DNA of 32,527 bases from an uncultured Thomasclavelia sp. (lineage in GTDB: Bacteria > Bacillota_I > Bacilli_A > Erysipelotrichales > Coprobacillaceae). Shown piece by piece: positions 2,288 through 8,455 of the stretch (positions are counted from its first letter, which is position 1; each line of letters begins with the position of its first letter). The DNA is taken from NCBI RefSeq assembly GCF_944324745.1, contig NZ_CALUXO010000009.1, positions 1 to 32,527 of the forward strand. The letters are read 5' to 3'. A program made the translations under genes and the position numbers. The notes under the pieces are model-generated. The model was given only the letters and a program-made list of their open reading frames with translations, did no database searches and had not been told where the DNA came from.

Positions 2288-2881
2288 ATGGATAATTTTT
2301 ATCAGGATGTTAATTTTAAGATTTATAAGAAATGGATGGAAAATCTTAATATTCCCGGTGTTTCGATAAAAAACAATCCTCATGATTCTAGTGAAATATT
2401 TTTTAAAAAAGATGATATAGTTGGAATTTCAGCTTTTTATCGTGATTATCTAGTCGAACATGAAATTTTTAAAACAAACAATAAGCAAAGAATTTTTTAT
2501 GTTCATTACCAATTTATTAATTTTAAACAATCATTAGTGATATTTAACGATTATATTAAAATATTTAAAAACTATCATCATCAAAAAAAGCTTAAAGTAT
2601 TATTATGTTGTAGTGCTGGTTATACTTCTACTTATTTTGTAGATGGTATAAAAAAGTTTTGTAAACTGTTAAACATTTCGATTGAAATAGAAGCATCCAG
2701 TTATTTAACGATTAATCAAAAACTAGGTAATTATGATTTAATTTTATTAGCACCACAAATTGCTTATCTAGTACCTAAATTAATGGTTCAGGGATGTAAA
2801 AATATTTATGCGATTCCCCCAAAGATATTTGCGACCAATGATTATCAGCAGGTAGTAGAATTTATTTTGAAACATTATTAG
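2288..2881 (+). CDS. unassigned N-terminal domain fused to a PTS EIIB-like domain
   Basis: A 197-residue protein. From about residue 103 it has a lactose/cellobiose EIIB-like fold signature: VLLCCSAGYTSTYF with the phosphorylatable cysteine (C108), then YDLILLAPQIAYL, the family's LLGPQIAY segment. The first 100 residues match no family I recognise, but they resemble the N-terminus of the 23355-24764 protein. Both also share an IPPK(I/V)FA ending not found in standard EIIB. Start choice: ATG 2288 follows a purine-rich AAGGTGAGG; the in-frame GTG at 2279 would leave no room for an RBS. It lies 36 bases after the RpiR gene and probably shares its transcript with the EIIB at 1024. A role as a phosphorylation-state sensor or dedicated phosphocarrier is inference. 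Confidence 0.8.
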   Translation: MDNFYQDVNFKIYKKWMENLNIPGVSIKNNPHDSSEIFFKKDDIVGISAFYRDYLVEHEIFKTNNKQRIFYVHYQFINFKQSLVIFNDYIKIFKNYHHQKKLKVLLCCSAGYTSTYFVDGIKKFCKLLNISIEIEASSYLTINQKLGNYDLILLAPQIAYLVPKLMVQGCKNIYAIPPKIFATNDYQQVVEFILKHY

Positions 2882-2923
2882 TTTACTATATTAAACAAAT
2901 TATTTTATTTTATGAAAAAGTTG

Positions 2924-2952
2924 TTGCATTTTCGATTATTATTATATATAAT
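2924..2952 (+). promoter_or_regulatory. promoter of the RNA/leader upstream of speD
   Basis: A perfect -10 TATAAT (2947-2952) is preceded at 17 bases by TTGCAT (2924-2929). TTGTTG at 2921-2926 is an alternative -35 with a longer spacer. Transcription would begin near 2959, exactly where the series of hairpins starts. Confidence 0.6.
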
Positions 2953-2958
2953 TAAGAT

Positions 2959-3290
2959 GTTGCAAAAACAGATTTTATTTTGCAAGAATTTTTGACCACT
3001 CTAATGAGTTAAAGCCATGCGGACAGCTGGGTCAAAAGCCGAATCGGCAACTTTGTTGCCTTATTGATATAACGAAAGTTATTAGCTTTTATAAGTTGAT
3101 GTCAAAATGACATTGAATTGGTGAATATTTAACCGTGTACTAGTAGGTACATACGCTTGTGAAACAATCAATAAGAGTAGTAAAAGTGATTCTTGCTATA
3201 TAGACTCTGCAAATAGTCAAACCAGAACACTGATGTTCTAATATGATAATGGATTGATTCTCAAGTTGGAAATCGACTTGAGATTTTTTG
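2959..3290 (+). ncRNA. candidate structured RNA (leader or independent ncRNA) upstream of speD
   Basis: This 330-base stretch has no convincing ORF but carries many short perfect stems. 2960-2967 pairs with 2978-2985. 2990-2997 pairs with 3030-3037 and encloses 2998-3001/3006-3009. 3046-3051 pairs with 3055-3060. 3069-3073 pairs with 3078-3082 and closes a GAAA tetraloop. Others are 3099-3104/3108-3113, 3135-3140/3147-3152 (one G-U pair), 3203-3206/3215-3218 and 3224-3228/3235-3239. A long-range stem joins 3166-3172 to 3253-3259. The last element is a strong terminator (3259-3289), just before the speD RBS. Local GC in the loops is higher than in other intergenic regions here. I do not recognise a T-box, S-box or other common riboswitch signature. 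It may be a cis-acting leader of the polyamine operon or a free RNA; large Firmicutes RNA families such as raiA should be tested. Confidence 0.6.
3259..3289 (+). terminator. strong terminator between the structured RNA and speD
   Basis: TCTCAAGTTG (3259-3268) pairs with CGACTTGAGA (3274-3283) around a 5-base loop, followed by six T. It ends about 20 bases before the speD start. It is either the 3' end of a separate RNA or an attenuator of the polyamine operon. Confidence 0.88.
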
Positions 3291-3310
3291 TTTTTTAAGG
3301 GGGAAACCAA

Positions 3311-4081
3311 ATGAATGAAAAGATGCAATTATATGGATTTAATAATCTAACCAAATCACTTAGCTTTAATATTTATGATATTTGTTATGCTAAAAGTCAA
3401 CGGGAACAACGTGATTATATTGCTTATATTGATGAACAGTATAATTCTAAACGTTTGACAGATATTTTATATCAAGTAGCTAATATGATCGGAGCTCAGG
3501 TACTAAATGTATCAAAACAAGACTATCATCCCCAAGGAGCTAGTGTAACAATGCTCTTAGCAGAAAATGAACGAAAAGGAACCGAAGAAATTGATGACCG
3601 AGTAATTTTAGGACATTTGGATAAAAGCCATATTACGGTGCACACTTATCCAGAATATCATCCTGAAACTAGTATCGCTACTTTTAGAGTTGACATTGAT
3701 GTTTCAACTTGTGGTGAAATTTCCCCTTTATCGACACTAGATTTTTTGATTGGTAATTTTGATTCTGATATTATTACCATGGATTATCGAGTTCGCGGAT
3801 TTACTAGAGATATTAAAGGTAAAAAATTATTTATGGATAATCCGATGACTTCAATTCAACAATACATTAATCAAGATACATTATTGAAATATGATGCGGT
3901 TGATATCAATGTCTATCAGGCAAATTTATTTCATACTAAGATGTTAATTAAGGAAATTGATTTACAAAATTATTTATTTAAGACCGATATTTATGAATTG
4001 CCGCCTAAAGAAAGGTTACAAATTACCAATAACTTACGGCAGGAAATGATTGAAATATATAGTGGAAGTAATATTTTTTAG
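3311..4081 (+). CDS. speD: S-adenosylmethionine decarboxylase proenzyme (E. coli type)
   Basis: Makes decarboxylated AdoMet, the aminopropyl donor for spermidine synthase. The 256 residues follow E. coli SpeD closely along the whole length (LYGFNNLTKSLSF, then QDYxPQGASVT, VSTCGxISPL, DYRVRGFTRDI, VYQxNxFHTKML). The self-cleavage site that creates the pyruvoyl cofactor is K105-S106 within HLDKSHITVHTYPE. This is the longer proteobacterial-type class, not the short Bacillus/Thermotoga form. It opens the polyamine operon with RBS AAGGGGG (3297-3303) directly after the leader terminator, and is followed 12 bases later by the decarboxylase gene. Confidence 0.97.
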   Translation: MNEKMQLYGFNNLTKSLSFNIYDICYAKSQREQRDYIAYIDEQYNSKRLTDILYQVANMIGAQVLNVSKQDYHPQGASVTMLLAENERKGTEEIDDRVILGHLDKSHITVHTYPEYHPETSIATFRVDIDVSTCGEISPLSTLDFLIGNFDSDIITMDYRVRGFTRDIKGKKLFMDNPMTSIQQYINQDTLLKYDAVDINVYQANLFHTKMLIKEIDLQNYLFKTDIYELPPKERLQITNNLRQEMIEIYSGSNIF

Positions 4082-4093
4082 AGGTGGTAGCGA

Positions 4094-5551
4094 ATGAAAT
4101 TAGATCAAAGTAGAATGCCAATATATGAGGCATTGCAACAAATGAAGCAAGATCGGTTGGTTCCTTTTGATGTTCCTGGTCATAAACATGGAAAGGGTAA
4201 TCGGGAATTGACAGAGTTTTTAGGACAAAAATGTATGAGCATTGATGTTAATTCAATGAAACCATTAGATAATTTATGTCACCCGGTTTCAGTTATTAAA
4301 GAAGCCGAAGAATTGGCCGCCGATGCCTTTAATGCTGCCCATGCTTTTTTCATGGTTGGCGGGACAACATCTTCAGTTCAAAGCATGATCATGGCTAGTG
4401 TTAAAGCTGGAGAAAAAATCATCATGCCTCGAAATGTTCATCGTAGTGCCATCAATGCGATGATCTTGACAGGATCGATTCCTATCTATGTAAATCCAGA
4501 AGTTGATAAGCGATTAGGAATTTCTTTAGGAATGTCAGTCAGTCAAGTTGAACAGGCTATTATTGATAATCCGGATGCTAAAGCTATTCTAATAAATAAT
4601 CCAACATATTATGGAATTTGTTCTAATATTAAGGCAATTGTTGATTTAGCGCATCAACATAATATGATGGCTTTAGTTGATGAAGCACATGGAACCCATT
4701 TTTATTTCAGTGACGAATTACCAATGTCAGCGATGGAAGCCGGTGCGGATATGGCCAGTGTCAGTATGCATAAATCAGGTGGTAGTTTGACCCAAAGTTC
4801 CTTTTTATTGCTGGGTCCCAATGTTAATGCAGATTATGTACGCCAAATCATTAATTTAACACAGACAACCAGCGGTTCTTATTTACTGATGGTAAGTTTA
4901 GATATGTCACGAAAAAATTTGGCACTAAATGGCAAAGAGATTTTTAGTAAAGTTCGTCGCTTAGCTCATTATGCTAGAGAAGAGATTAATCAAATTGGTG
5001 ATTATTATGCTTATTGTCGGGAATTGATCAATGGCGATAGTGTTTATGATTTTGATGTAACTAAGTTATCAATATTTACTCTAGATGTTGGTTTAGCTGG
5101 AATCGAAGTTTATGATTTGTTGCGTGATGAATATGGAATTCAAATTGAATTTGGTGACATCGGCAATGTCTTAGCATATATATCAGTTGGTGATAGCGAA
5201 GCTAATATCGAACGCTTGGTAGGAGCTTTATCAGAAATAAGAAGAAGATTTAAAAAAGATCGTACGGGGATGTTAGATCATGAGTATATCAATCCGGAAG
5301 TAATAGTATCACCACAAGTTGCTTTTTATGGTGAAAAAGAATCATTGCCACTAAAAGAAAGTGCTAACCGTGTTTGTAGCGAGTTTGTTATGTGTTATCC
5401 ACCAGGAATTCCTATTTTAGCTCCAGGAGAAAAAATTACTCCTGAAATTCTTGATTATATTGAATATGCCAAAGAAAAAGGGTGCTTCATGACAGGACCG
5501 GAAGATATGGAAATAAATAATTTAAATGTATTAAAGGAAGAGGTGAAATAA
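4094..5551 (+). CDS. speA: Orn/Lys/Arg decarboxylase, PLP fold type I (probable arginine decarboxylase)
   Basis: A 485-residue PLP enzyme of the Gram-positive SpeA/YaaO group. Visible landmarks are the PGHKHGKG start motif, GGTTSS at 89-94 for the PLP phosphate, DEAHGTH (D196, E197, H199), and the Schiff-base lysine K227 in SMHKSGGSLTQSS. The C-terminal domain is present (VMCYPPGIPILAPGE). The neighbouring agmatinase strongly suggests arginine as substrate: arginine to agmatine, then putrescine plus urea. Lysine or ornithine specificity cannot be excluded by sequence. The RBS is GAGGTGG just before the ATG. The stop codon overlaps the speE start by one base, so the two are translationally coupled. 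Confidence 0.93.
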   Translation: MKLDQSRMPIYEALQQMKQDRLVPFDVPGHKHGKGNRELTEFLGQKCMSIDVNSMKPLDNLCHPVSVIKEAEELAADAFNAAHAFFMVGGTTSSVQSMIMASVKAGEKIIMPRNVHRSAINAMILTGSIPIYVNPEVDKRLGISLGMSVSQVEQAIIDNPDAKAILINNPTYYGICSNIKAIVDLAHQHNMMALVDEAHGTHFYFSDELPMSAMEAGADMASVSMHKSGGSLTQSSFLLLGPNVNADYVRQIINLTQTTSGSYLLMVSLDMSRKNLALNGKEIFSKVRRLAHYAREEINQIGDYYAYCRELINGDSVYDFDVTKLSIFTLDVGLAGIEVYDLLRDEYGIQIEFGDIGNVLAYISVGDSEANIERLVGALSEIRRRFKKDRTGMLDHEYINPEVIVSPQVAFYGEKESLPLKESANRVCSEFVMCYPPGIPILAPGEKITPEILDYIEYAKEKGCFMTGPEDMEINNLNVLKEEVK

Positions 5552-6402
5552 TGGAGCTATGGTTTACAGAGCGCCATACGAATGGTGTGAATTTTTCAAT
5601 TAAAGTTGATCGACAGTTATTTAGTGGTCATAGTGAATTTCAAAGAATTGATATTTTTGATTCTAAAGAATTTGGACGTTTTTTGGCATTAGATGGATAT
5701 ATGATGCTAACTGAAAAAGATGAATTTATTTATCATGAAATGATTGTCCATGTTCCAATGGCCGTTCATCCAAATGTAAAAAAAGTACTTGTTATTGGTG
5801 CCGGTGATGGTGGAGTTATTCGTGAATTATGCCGTTATGAGACGATTGAAACGATTGATATGGTTGAAATTGATGAATTAGTAGTTGAAGTAAGTAAAAA
5901 ATATTTGCCTACTACTGCTTGTTGTTTCGATGATCCTCGTTTGAATATTTATTATCAAGATGGTTTGCGTTTTGTTCGAACTAAAGAAAATGAATATGAT
6001 TTAATTATTGTAGATTCGACAGATCCATTTGGTCCCGGTGAAGGATTATTTACGAAAGAATTTTATGGTAATTGTTATAAGGCATTAAATGAAGCAGGAA
6101 TAATGGTAAATCAGCATGAAAGTCCTTTTTATCAAACAGATGCGATTGCCATGCAACGAGCTCATAAGCGAATTGTAGAAAGTTTTCCGATTTCACGCGT
6201 TTATCAGGCGCATATTCCAACTTATCCATCAGGACACTGGTTGTTTGGTTTTGCCTCAAAGAAATATCATCCAATTAAAGATTTCCAAAAAACAAAATGG
6301 AATGCTAGAGGGATGAAAACTAAGTATTATAATACTGGAATTCATGTTGGTTCCTTTGCTTTACCAAATTATGTAGAGGAGTTACTTAGAGATGTGGAAT
6401 AA
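5551..6402 (+). CDS. speE: spermidine synthase (polyamine aminopropyltransferase)
   Basis: Transfers the aminopropyl group of decarboxylated AdoMet to putrescine. The 283 residues show the class I methyltransferase-like core: GAGDGG (83-88) followed by VIREL, the acidic end of strand 2 (VEIDE, 106-109), QDGLRFV (136-142), and the catalytic DSTDP (155-159) before FGPGEGLF. The family's C-terminal YPSGHWLFGFASK segment is also present. Length is normal. It overlaps the preceding decarboxylase by one base and the following agmatinase by 11 bases. SpeD and SpeE together form the first of two spermidine routes in this operon. Confidence 0.97.
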   Translation: MELWFTERHTNGVNFSIKVDRQLFSGHSEFQRIDIFDSKEFGRFLALDGYMMLTEKDEFIYHEMIVHVPMAVHPNVKKVLVIGAGDGGVIRELCRYETIETIDMVEIDELVVEVSKKYLPTTACCFDDPRLNIYYQDGLRFVRTKENEYDLIIVDSTDPFGPGEGLFTKEFYGNCYKALNEAGIMVNQHESPFYQTDAIAMQRAHKRIVESFPISRVYQAHIPTYPSGHWLFGFASKKYHPIKDFQKTKWNARGMKTKYYNTGIHVGSFALPNYVEELLRDVE

Positions 6403-7252: not shown

Positions 7253-8455
7253 ATGAAAAGAACATTAATTATTGGTTGTGGTGGAGTTGCCTCAGTAGCA
7301 ATTCACAAATGTTGTCAAAATAGTGATGTATTTGAAGAAATTATGATTGCTTCAAGAACAAAAAGTAAATGCGATAAATTAAAAGAAGAATTACAAGATA
7401 AAACAAAAACAATCATTCATACAGCTAAGGTTGACGCTAATAACGTTGATGAATTAGTAGCTTTAATGCAAGATTTTAAACCAGAAGTAGTTTTAAATCT
7501 AGCATTACCATATCAAGATTTAAAAATCATGGATGCCTGTTTAATTGCAGGGTGTCATTATATCGATACTGCAAACTATGAACCAGAAGATACTGCTAAG
7601 TTTGAATATAGCTGGCAATGGGCTTATCGAGAAAAATTTGAACAAGCTGGTTTAACTGCAATTTTAGGTTGTGGATTTGATCCAGGAGTTACTGGTGTAT
7701 TTAGTGCTTATGCTTTAAAACACGAATTCGACGAAATTAATTATATTGATATTTTAGACTGTAATGGTGGTGACCATGGTTATCCATTTGCCACAAACTT
7801 TAATCCAGAAATTAATATTCGTGAAGTTTCTGCTAATGGAAGTTATTGGGAAGATGGTCATTGGGTTGAAACAAAACCAATGGAAATTAAACGTGAATAT
7901 GATTTTGCCCAAGTTGGTAAAAAAGATATGTATTTATTACATCATGAAGAATTAGAATCATTAGGAATTAATATTCCTGGTATCAAAAGAATCCGTTTCT
8001 TCATGACTTTTGGTGAAAGCTATTTAACTCATTTAAAATGTTTAGAAGATGTAGGGATGACATCAATTGAACCAATTGAATTTGAAGGAAAACAAATTAT
8101 CCCACTACAATTTTTAAAAGCAGTTTTACCAGATCCAGCTAGTTTAGGACCAAGAACTGTTGGTAAAACTAATATTGGATGTATTTTCCAAGGTAAAAAA
8201 GATGGTGAATACAAAAAATACTATTTATATAATGTCTGTGATCATCAAGAATGCTATAAAGAAGTTGGTTCTCAAGCTGTTAGCTATACAACTGGAGTAC
8301 CAGCAATGATTGGAGCAATGCTATTATTACAAGGAAAATGGAAAAAACCTGGAGTATATAATGTTGAAGAATTCGATCCAGATCCATTCATGGATGCTTT
8401 AAATAAATGGGGATTACCATGGATTGAAGATCGTAATCCAGTATTGGTGGACTAA
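7253..8455 (+). CDS. carboxynorspermidine/carboxyspermidine dehydrogenase (saccharopine dehydrogenase family)
   Basis: Condenses putrescine (or diaminopropane) with L-aspartate-4-semialdehyde and reduces the imine to carboxyspermidine (or carboxynorspermidine). The 400 residues begin with an NAD(P)-binding Rossmann loop (LIIGCGGVASVAIHKC) and show the saccharopine-dehydrogenase-like pattern: VVLNLALPYQD, CHYIDTANYE, and GCGFDPGVTGVFSAYA. The length fits the CASDH/CANSDH group. The assignment rests largely on the adjacent nspC, its usual partner. ATG follows the speB stop directly and has RBS AAAGGAG. The stop overlaps nspC by one base. Confidence 0.9.
   Translation: MKRTLIIGCGGVASVAIHKCCQNSDVFEEIMIASRTKSKCDKLKEELQDKTKTIIHTAKVDANNVDELVALMQDFKPEVVLNLALPYQDLKIMDACLIAGCHYIDTANYEPEDTAKFEYSWQWAYREKFEQAGLTAILGCGFDPGVTGVFSAYALKHEFDEINYIDILDCNGGDHGYPFATNFNPEINIREVSANGSYWEDGHWVETKPMEIKREYDFAQVGKKDMYLLHHEELESLGINIPGIKRIRFFMTFGESYLTHLKCLEDVGMTSIEPIEFEGKQIIPLQFLKAVLPDPASLGPRTVGKTNIGCIFQGKKDGEYKKYYLYNVCDHQECYKEVGSQAVSYTTGVPAMIGAMLLLQGKWKKPGVYNVEEFDPDPFMDALNKWGLPWIEDRNPVLVD

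Follow-up and report, generated by a model that had tools for sequence, protein, structure and literature searches.

A conserved structured leader of polyamine genes in Bacillota, a probable attenuator and candidate spermidine riboswitch

Here we present a structured RNA at about 2959-3290, forward strand, in a 32,527-nt contig of an uncultured Thomasclavelia sp. that was analysed over its whole length (the window). The RNA is the 5' leader of a polyamine operon made up of speD, an OKR decarboxylase, speE, agmatinase, CASDH and CASDC, and computation supports its structure, its association with polyamine genes in relatives, and an antiterminator and a terminator that exclude one another. That the leader attenuates polyamine genes in cis we regard as very likely; that it is an off-switch of polyamine synthesis and import genes, most likely a riboswitch and most likely one for spermidine, we regard as probable. 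The leader, of ~330 bases and occurring in many Bacillota, looks widespread and undescribed, the databases covering a 54-base piece labelled as a streptococcal sRNA. We propose it as an orphan riboswitch candidate that would define a new class, and Rfam already contains part of it under a different label.

The leader fills the gap between the stop of the upstream gene at 2881 and speD, with the terminator just 5' of the ribosome binding site, and the region is laid out as follows.

2924-2952, + strand: promoter-like site, TTGCAT (2924-2929), 17 nt, TATAAT (2947-2952); sequence, with TTG..TATAAT in the same place in near relatives
2960-2985, + strand: 5' hairpin P0, 8 bp, TTGCAAAA (2960-2967) with TTTTGCAA (2978-2985); sequence
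2990-3042, + strand: domain A, Rfam RF02440; Rfam 57.3 bits, compensatory changes
2990-2997/3030-3037, 2998-3001/3006-3009 and 3013-3015/3026-3028, + strand: helices P1, P2 and P3 of domain A
3020-3024 and 3038-3042, + strand: conserved loop CGGAC, and GCCGA, of domain A
3046-3060, + strand: hairpin P4, GGCAAC/GTTGCC; 5 of 6 pairs change on both sides
3061-3174, + strand: long-range helix P5 (3061-3068/3167-3174), closing domain B; covariation test
3069-3082, + strand: hairpin P6, ATAAC-GAAA-GTTAT, GAAA tetraloop; all 4 pairs change on both sides
3090-3161, + strand: helix P7 (3090-3096/3155-3161); covariation test, antiterminator coevolution
3099-3113, + strand: additional hairpin ATGTCA/TGACAT, present in the genus and family of the window; alignments
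3120-3134, + strand: hairpin P8 (3 bp in the window); covariation test
3135-3152, + strand: hairpin P9; covariation test
3175-3207, + strand: P10 (3175-3178/3204-3207) with P11 (3185-3189/3193-3197) inside it; covariation test
3252-3266, + strand: putative antiterminator partner strand, pairing with 3155-3169 and overlapping the terminator 5' arm; window duplex, coevolution in relatives
3259-3289, + strand: intrinsic terminator, stem 3259-3269/3273-3283 (11 pairs), then U tract (TTTTTT)
3297-3303, + strand: speD ribosome binding site AAGGGGG; sequence
3311-4081, + strand: speD, adenosylmethionine decarboxylase, the proposed regulated gene; NCBIfam TIGR03331, 397 bits
4094-9564, + strand: rest of the operon, with starts of the Orn/Lys/Arg (OKR) decarboxylase at 4094, speE at 5551, agmatinase at 6392, a CASDH-like gene at 7253 and CASDC/nspC at 8455

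The promoter-like site is missing from the output of a generic promoter scan; the GCAAA/TTTGC hairpin at P0 recurs within the window's genus. Further upstream, at 1024-2881, translations read by eye resemble a PTS EIIB-type component and an RpiR-type regulator, with no evident link to polyamines.

An earlier note, made from the letters of this DNA, had proposed a structured RNA at these positions, and folding, covariation and conservation in relatives all bear it out. The folding energy of the leader is -94.6 kcal/mol against a shuffle mean of -68.1 (z -5.3), beating 100 of 100 dinucleotide shuffles, and two terminator-like sites occur in the leader region where 0.1 is expected in shuffles. 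Covariation was measured in 71 relatives aligned to a model of domain B, using 42 proposed pairs and 500 shuffles; a plain MAFFT alignment (A1) was excluded from pair counting since its variable loops were misaligned. Standard pairs fill 96.8% of cells, compared with 92.9% in shuffles and at most 56.5% when partners are slid by 1-3 columns. Changes on both sides were seen in 25 of the 42 pairs (6.7 in shuffles) and in 82 cells (8.0 in shuffles), and none of the three values was reached in any of the 500 shuffles; since the sequences were aligned to fit the structure, these counts lean towards the proposed pairs. The size of the effect and its spread over eight helices make it unlikely that such fitting is the source of the signal. 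In the same alignment P5 is paired in 98.6% of cells, with three pairs changing on both sides.

Several elements that the earlier note had read by eye are recovered in this analysis, including the -10 TATAAT at 2947-2952, which is accompanied by TTGCAT and alike in near relatives, and the GAAA tetraloop hairpin (3069-3082), which covaries. The terminator before the speD ribosome binding site also stands, with its U tract, at 11 pairs rather than the 10 first given. The conserved fold differs from the listed stems: the long-range match AATCAAT/ATTGATT (3166-3172/3253-3259) exists and overlaps the competing antiterminator, while the key long-range helix is P5.

Within domain A, among 179 cases the P1 pair beside GACC/GGUC is UA in 146, CG in 7 and GC in 6; P3 varies between GGC/GCC and AGC/GCU, and reads GCC/GGC in streptococci. 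Because P1 and P3 show these compensatory changes, another fold for the loop of domain A, returned by RNAalifold on the MAFFT alignment (GGCC/GGUC plus CGG/CCG), was dropped. A possible pseudoknot would join the CGG of the loop to the CCG in GCCGA; its two strands hardly vary, in part because both were required by the search pattern.

A search against all Rfam gave a single match in the window, RF02440 (SpF59 sRNA, 'ldcC RNA'), at 2993-3042 with 57.3 bits against a cut-off of 37.2. Domain A is therefore a clear member of this family by score, and the RNA is uncharacterised, as first described, except for these 50 nt and for the pneumococcal transcripts F59/SN20/srn235, which lie in the gap before SP0916. 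The other ~200-240 nt of the leader matched no Rfam family in these scans; the 2017 survey of Weinberg et al. reportedly covers 224 motifs, whose families would be expected in Rfam. The Rfam family, from Streptococcus, covers 54 nt and is typed as an sRNA gene, whereas in the window domain A forms the 5' part of a ~330-nt conserved leader, before polyamine genes, with the domain B, terminator and antiterminator that the Rfam entry lacks; the window copy is thus not a stand-alone sRNA gene. In the alignment of relatives strong conservation extends over ~200-250 bases, compared with the 54 in Rfam, and the part beyond RF02440 shows strong conservation across Bacilli, Clostridia and Streptococcaceae as well as in the window's own family.

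The two domains are to some degree separable. Domain A, recognised by its pattern, lies upstream of 54 of 58 domain B matches, and L217, L220, L225 and L231 have no recognisable copy. Two leaders of the window's own genus, L243 (1200-1402) and L247 (1195-1399), keep domain B and the terminator; their domain A, which Rfam did not find even at E 0.1, is lost or replaced. The part known to Rfam is therefore dispensable in some lineages. Conversely, L003, before speD, has a domain A with the remainder much reduced.

The genes behind the RNA are strikingly coherent. A search of named genomes with the core pattern of domain A returned at least 120 stretches, and among the matches listed, 112 of the 119 loci whose first gene could be assigned by signature motifs have a polyamine gene there: CASDH in 55, SpeD in 43, PotA or PotB/C in 10 and an OKR decarboxylase in 4, with 7 others. 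Two genome samples searched with R1, a covariance model of domain B applied without the domain A pattern, agree, 58 of the 60 loci listed having a polyamine gene first (CASDH 27, SpeD 13, OKR 10, PotA 8) and two being without assignment. Lactococcus sp. dk101 carries two copies of the RNA, one before potA and the other before an OKR decarboxylase. The leader is thus a conserved structured 5' domain with a coherent gene association, as expected of a riboswitch. The seven other first genes, for which no polyamine role is known, are four C39-like peptidase lipoproteins directly 3' of the same RNA core (L008, L010, L014, L126) and three M28 peptidase-like genes directly 3' of the RNA (L009, L030, L042). 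No polyamine gene is adjacent around L010 or L009 (fetched as L238 and L239), and the C39-like lipoproteins may hint at a further polyamine role.

The Orn/Lys/Arg decarboxylases downstream bring to mind attenuation by a leader peptide, in which the ribosome would sense the supply of arginine or lysine. What is conserved, however, is paired RNA and not a reading frame: none of 120 leaders among the matches listed has a position-conserved short ORF with a ribosome site, and the Rfam scans gave no match to the T-box family. We regard ribosome-mediated control as extremely improbable.

Attenuation by the RNA itself is indicated by coevolution between the core and the terminator. In 76 of 97 loci the 5' arm of the terminator carries CAAG near its start, compared with 2.0 expected from shuffled arms, and this CAAG is complementary to CUUG in the 3' strand of P7. 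Variants of the core strand are matched by variants of the arm; L018, L024, L036 and L097 form long matching duplexes, and in Lactovum (L118) an arm CAAGCGU faces a core ACGCUUG. Over 43 sequence clusters, cognate duplexes of core and 5' arm average -12.3 kcal/mol against -9.2 for swapped ones, a difference reached in 0 of 20,000 permutations; these correct only partly for relatedness, and the 3' arm, used as a control, lacks the effect (p 0.89). Scores normalised to shuffled arms gave the same outcome. Automatic picking of terminators was wrong at some loci, as at L164 and L167, where it chose hairpins lying within the gene, and such errors weaken rather than create the signal. The 5' arm of the terminator thus covaries with the 3' strands of P7/P9, and this pairing is the predicted antiterminator. 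Since P7 and P9 are built from the same core strands, the P7 3' strand being common to both folds, the core and the antiterminator would be mutually exclusive.

In the window the corresponding duplex, 3155-3169 with 3252-3266, has an energy of -13.7 kcal/mol. The P7/P9 strand by itself gives a weak -7.3 kcal/mol, so that the strength of the duplex needs the 3' strand of P5. With the helices imposed, the terminated state has -85.3 and the alternative -70.4 kcal/mol, and energy alone favours termination. Coevolution and the window duplex together describe an expression platform exclusive with the conserved fold, a further trait of riboswitches. The idea of a switching contact in the earlier note was sound, its partners less so: AAGTTG does occur at 3093-3098 and 3263-3268, the latter being part of the correct partner strand, while CAACTT lies at 3048-3053, not 3049-3054, and the conserved pair is that of the P7/P9 3' strand (3155-3169) with 3252-3266. 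The CAACTT/AAGTTG switch is not conserved, the sequence of most other terminators in the genus being CAAGTGGG.

These data also bear on the label under which part of the RNA is already known. RF02440 carries the name of the pneumococcal sRNA F59, and its second name, 'ldcC RNA', agrees with the identity of SP0916, a lysine decarboxylase gene. F59 is placed between SP0915 and SP0916 in pneumococcal sRNA lists (PMC3395615). The same interval holds SN20, a transcript of 318 nt by tiling array, reported as an sRNA without assigned function and with a guess at an FMN switch (PMC2887815); srn235/Spd_sr49 measures 327 nt from its coordinates (PMC12323649). This discrete transcript of 318-327 nt resembles our leader in extent, and the streptococcal loci found here have the full RNA upstream of an OKR decarboxylase, the same layout. 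In its own papers F59/SN20/srn235 is an sRNA and not a polyamine attenuator, and its identity with our loci rests on this layout and on RF02440. That the RNA acts in trans as a small RNA, as it is listed in Rfam and as F59/SN20/srn235, would fit the lung fitness of 0.05 of srn235/SN20 mutants in Tn-seq (PMC3395615), yet an insertion in a leader can exert its effect by way of the operon that follows. Polyamine genes also come immediately after the RNA on its own strand, and the RNA has a terminator and a co-varying antiterminator, so that a trans-acting role is very unlikely and an independent ncRNA, once held to be equally possible, loses that standing. If the cis-attenuator reading is true, a pneumococcal "virulence sRNA" would be recast as the leader of a polyamine operon.

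The following mechanism is proposed for the attenuator. Transcription would start near 2959, and the nascent RNA would form P1-P3 of domain A and P4-P11 of domain B, P5 closing a multibranch fold with P7, P8 and P9. An abundant polyamine, most likely spermidine, would stabilise this fold and hold the 3' strands of P7/P9, and in the window also of P5, within the core; the terminator (3259-3283) could then form and transcription would end before speD. When polyamine is scarce, 3155-3169 would pair with 3252-3266, over the 5' arm of the terminator, allowing read-through into the operon. The off direction is probable, and it is likely, with good confidence, that the leader binds its ligand directly.

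Direct binding has a rival in a polyamine-regulated RNA-binding protein that would work the same attenuator by stabilising the core or the antiterminator. Leaders that depend on a protein, as with PyrR, are known in general, and the RNA is large and has long invariant stretches, which would suit a protein. No protein gene is common to the speD, CASDH, potA and OKR decarboxylase operon types, however, so that an autoregulator within the regulated operons is absent, and the RNA is present in distant lineages; we consider protein sensing unlikely. Against a settled sensing module in the RNA itself counts the absence or decay of domain A in some leaders (the six named above: L217, L220, L225, L231, L243 and L247).

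Given a riboswitch, spermidine is probably its ligand. Spermidine is the outcome of both the SpeD/SpeE and the CASDH/CASDC routes and is imported by PotABC, while AdoMet is used neither by CASDH/CASDC nor by Pot; spermidine is for these reasons the simplest signal. A riboswitch of the same design might respond instead to putrescine, agmatine or another polyamine, or to AdoMet, decarboxylated AdoMet or MTA, which we hold to be rather unlikely. Putrescine is a substrate or product in these pathways, and the gene context fits it or another polyamine almost as well; speD uses AdoMet. End-product feedback nevertheless makes spermidine the simplest signal common to all operon types. The initial proposal of a polyamine- or AdoMet-responsive leader is upheld as to the polyamine operon, and AdoMet is made less likely by the many copies that lie before CASDH/CASDC or PotABC genes.

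A spermidine riboswitch has been verified by Salvail et al. 2023 as a SAM-I variant with a four-stem scaffold and 13 examples (PMC10853860). It lies before ldcC, speE and speB in other Gram-positive Bacilli and is an off-switch acting by termination (PMC10853860). Like our leader it precedes polyamine genes in Gram-positives; unlike our leader it has the SAM-I scaffold, and the two are different RNAs. At Rfam cut-offs neither the window nor 18 relatives gave a match to the SAM family, within 2880-3340 there was none up to E 5, and the SAM-I aptamer scaffold is not found in the leader. The potE and odc1 motifs are also polyamine-associated candidate RNAs, from Veillonella and alpha-proteobacteria, and are set apart from this leader by the structures and gene contexts in the passages of Brewer et al. 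2021 that describe them (PMC8632094). Searches of open full-text literature gave no description of the leader as a polyamine regulator. Further polyamine riboswitch classes seem certain to remain undiscovered, according to Salvail et al. (PMC10853860). The spermidine riboswitch has so far been one narrow class of 13 examples, compared with the wide spread of this leader. There is an even chance, in our judgement, that the leader is a second and far more widespread polyamine (spermidine) riboswitch class, on a non-SAM-I scaffold, with two separable modules and possibly two sensors. The separability of the modules is suggested by the leaders that have domain B without a recognisable domain A and by the one that has domain A with a shrunken domain B.

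The pattern matches listed come from Paenibacillus, Bacillus, Neobacillus, Lachnospiraceae, Oscillospiraceae, Acetobacterium, Lactococcus and others, and include single MAGs labelled Spirochaetes, Synergistaceae and Brachyspira; a match in a Paracoccus MAG (L108) looks like chance. The core pattern gave no match in viral contigs. With R1 the RNA was found in 33 of 199 genomes of one order of Bacillus relatives and in 39 of 291 genomes of one class of Clostridia, while RF02440 (domain A) was found in 30 of 147 Streptococcaceae genomes and, within the window's family, in 10 of 43. SpeD is encoded by 12 of these 43 genomes, 11 of which also carry the RNA or its domain B.

The leaders differ in their insertions. 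Between the GCCGA motif and P4 there are short inserted hairpins in L024, L046, L076 and L131, and long insertions in a Ruminococcus MAG (L029, near 1922-1990). In some Bacilli leaders, such as L023, L034 and L115, P11 is followed, ahead of the terminator, by a further long A+T-rich segment that contains inverted repeats and is absent from the leader in the window.
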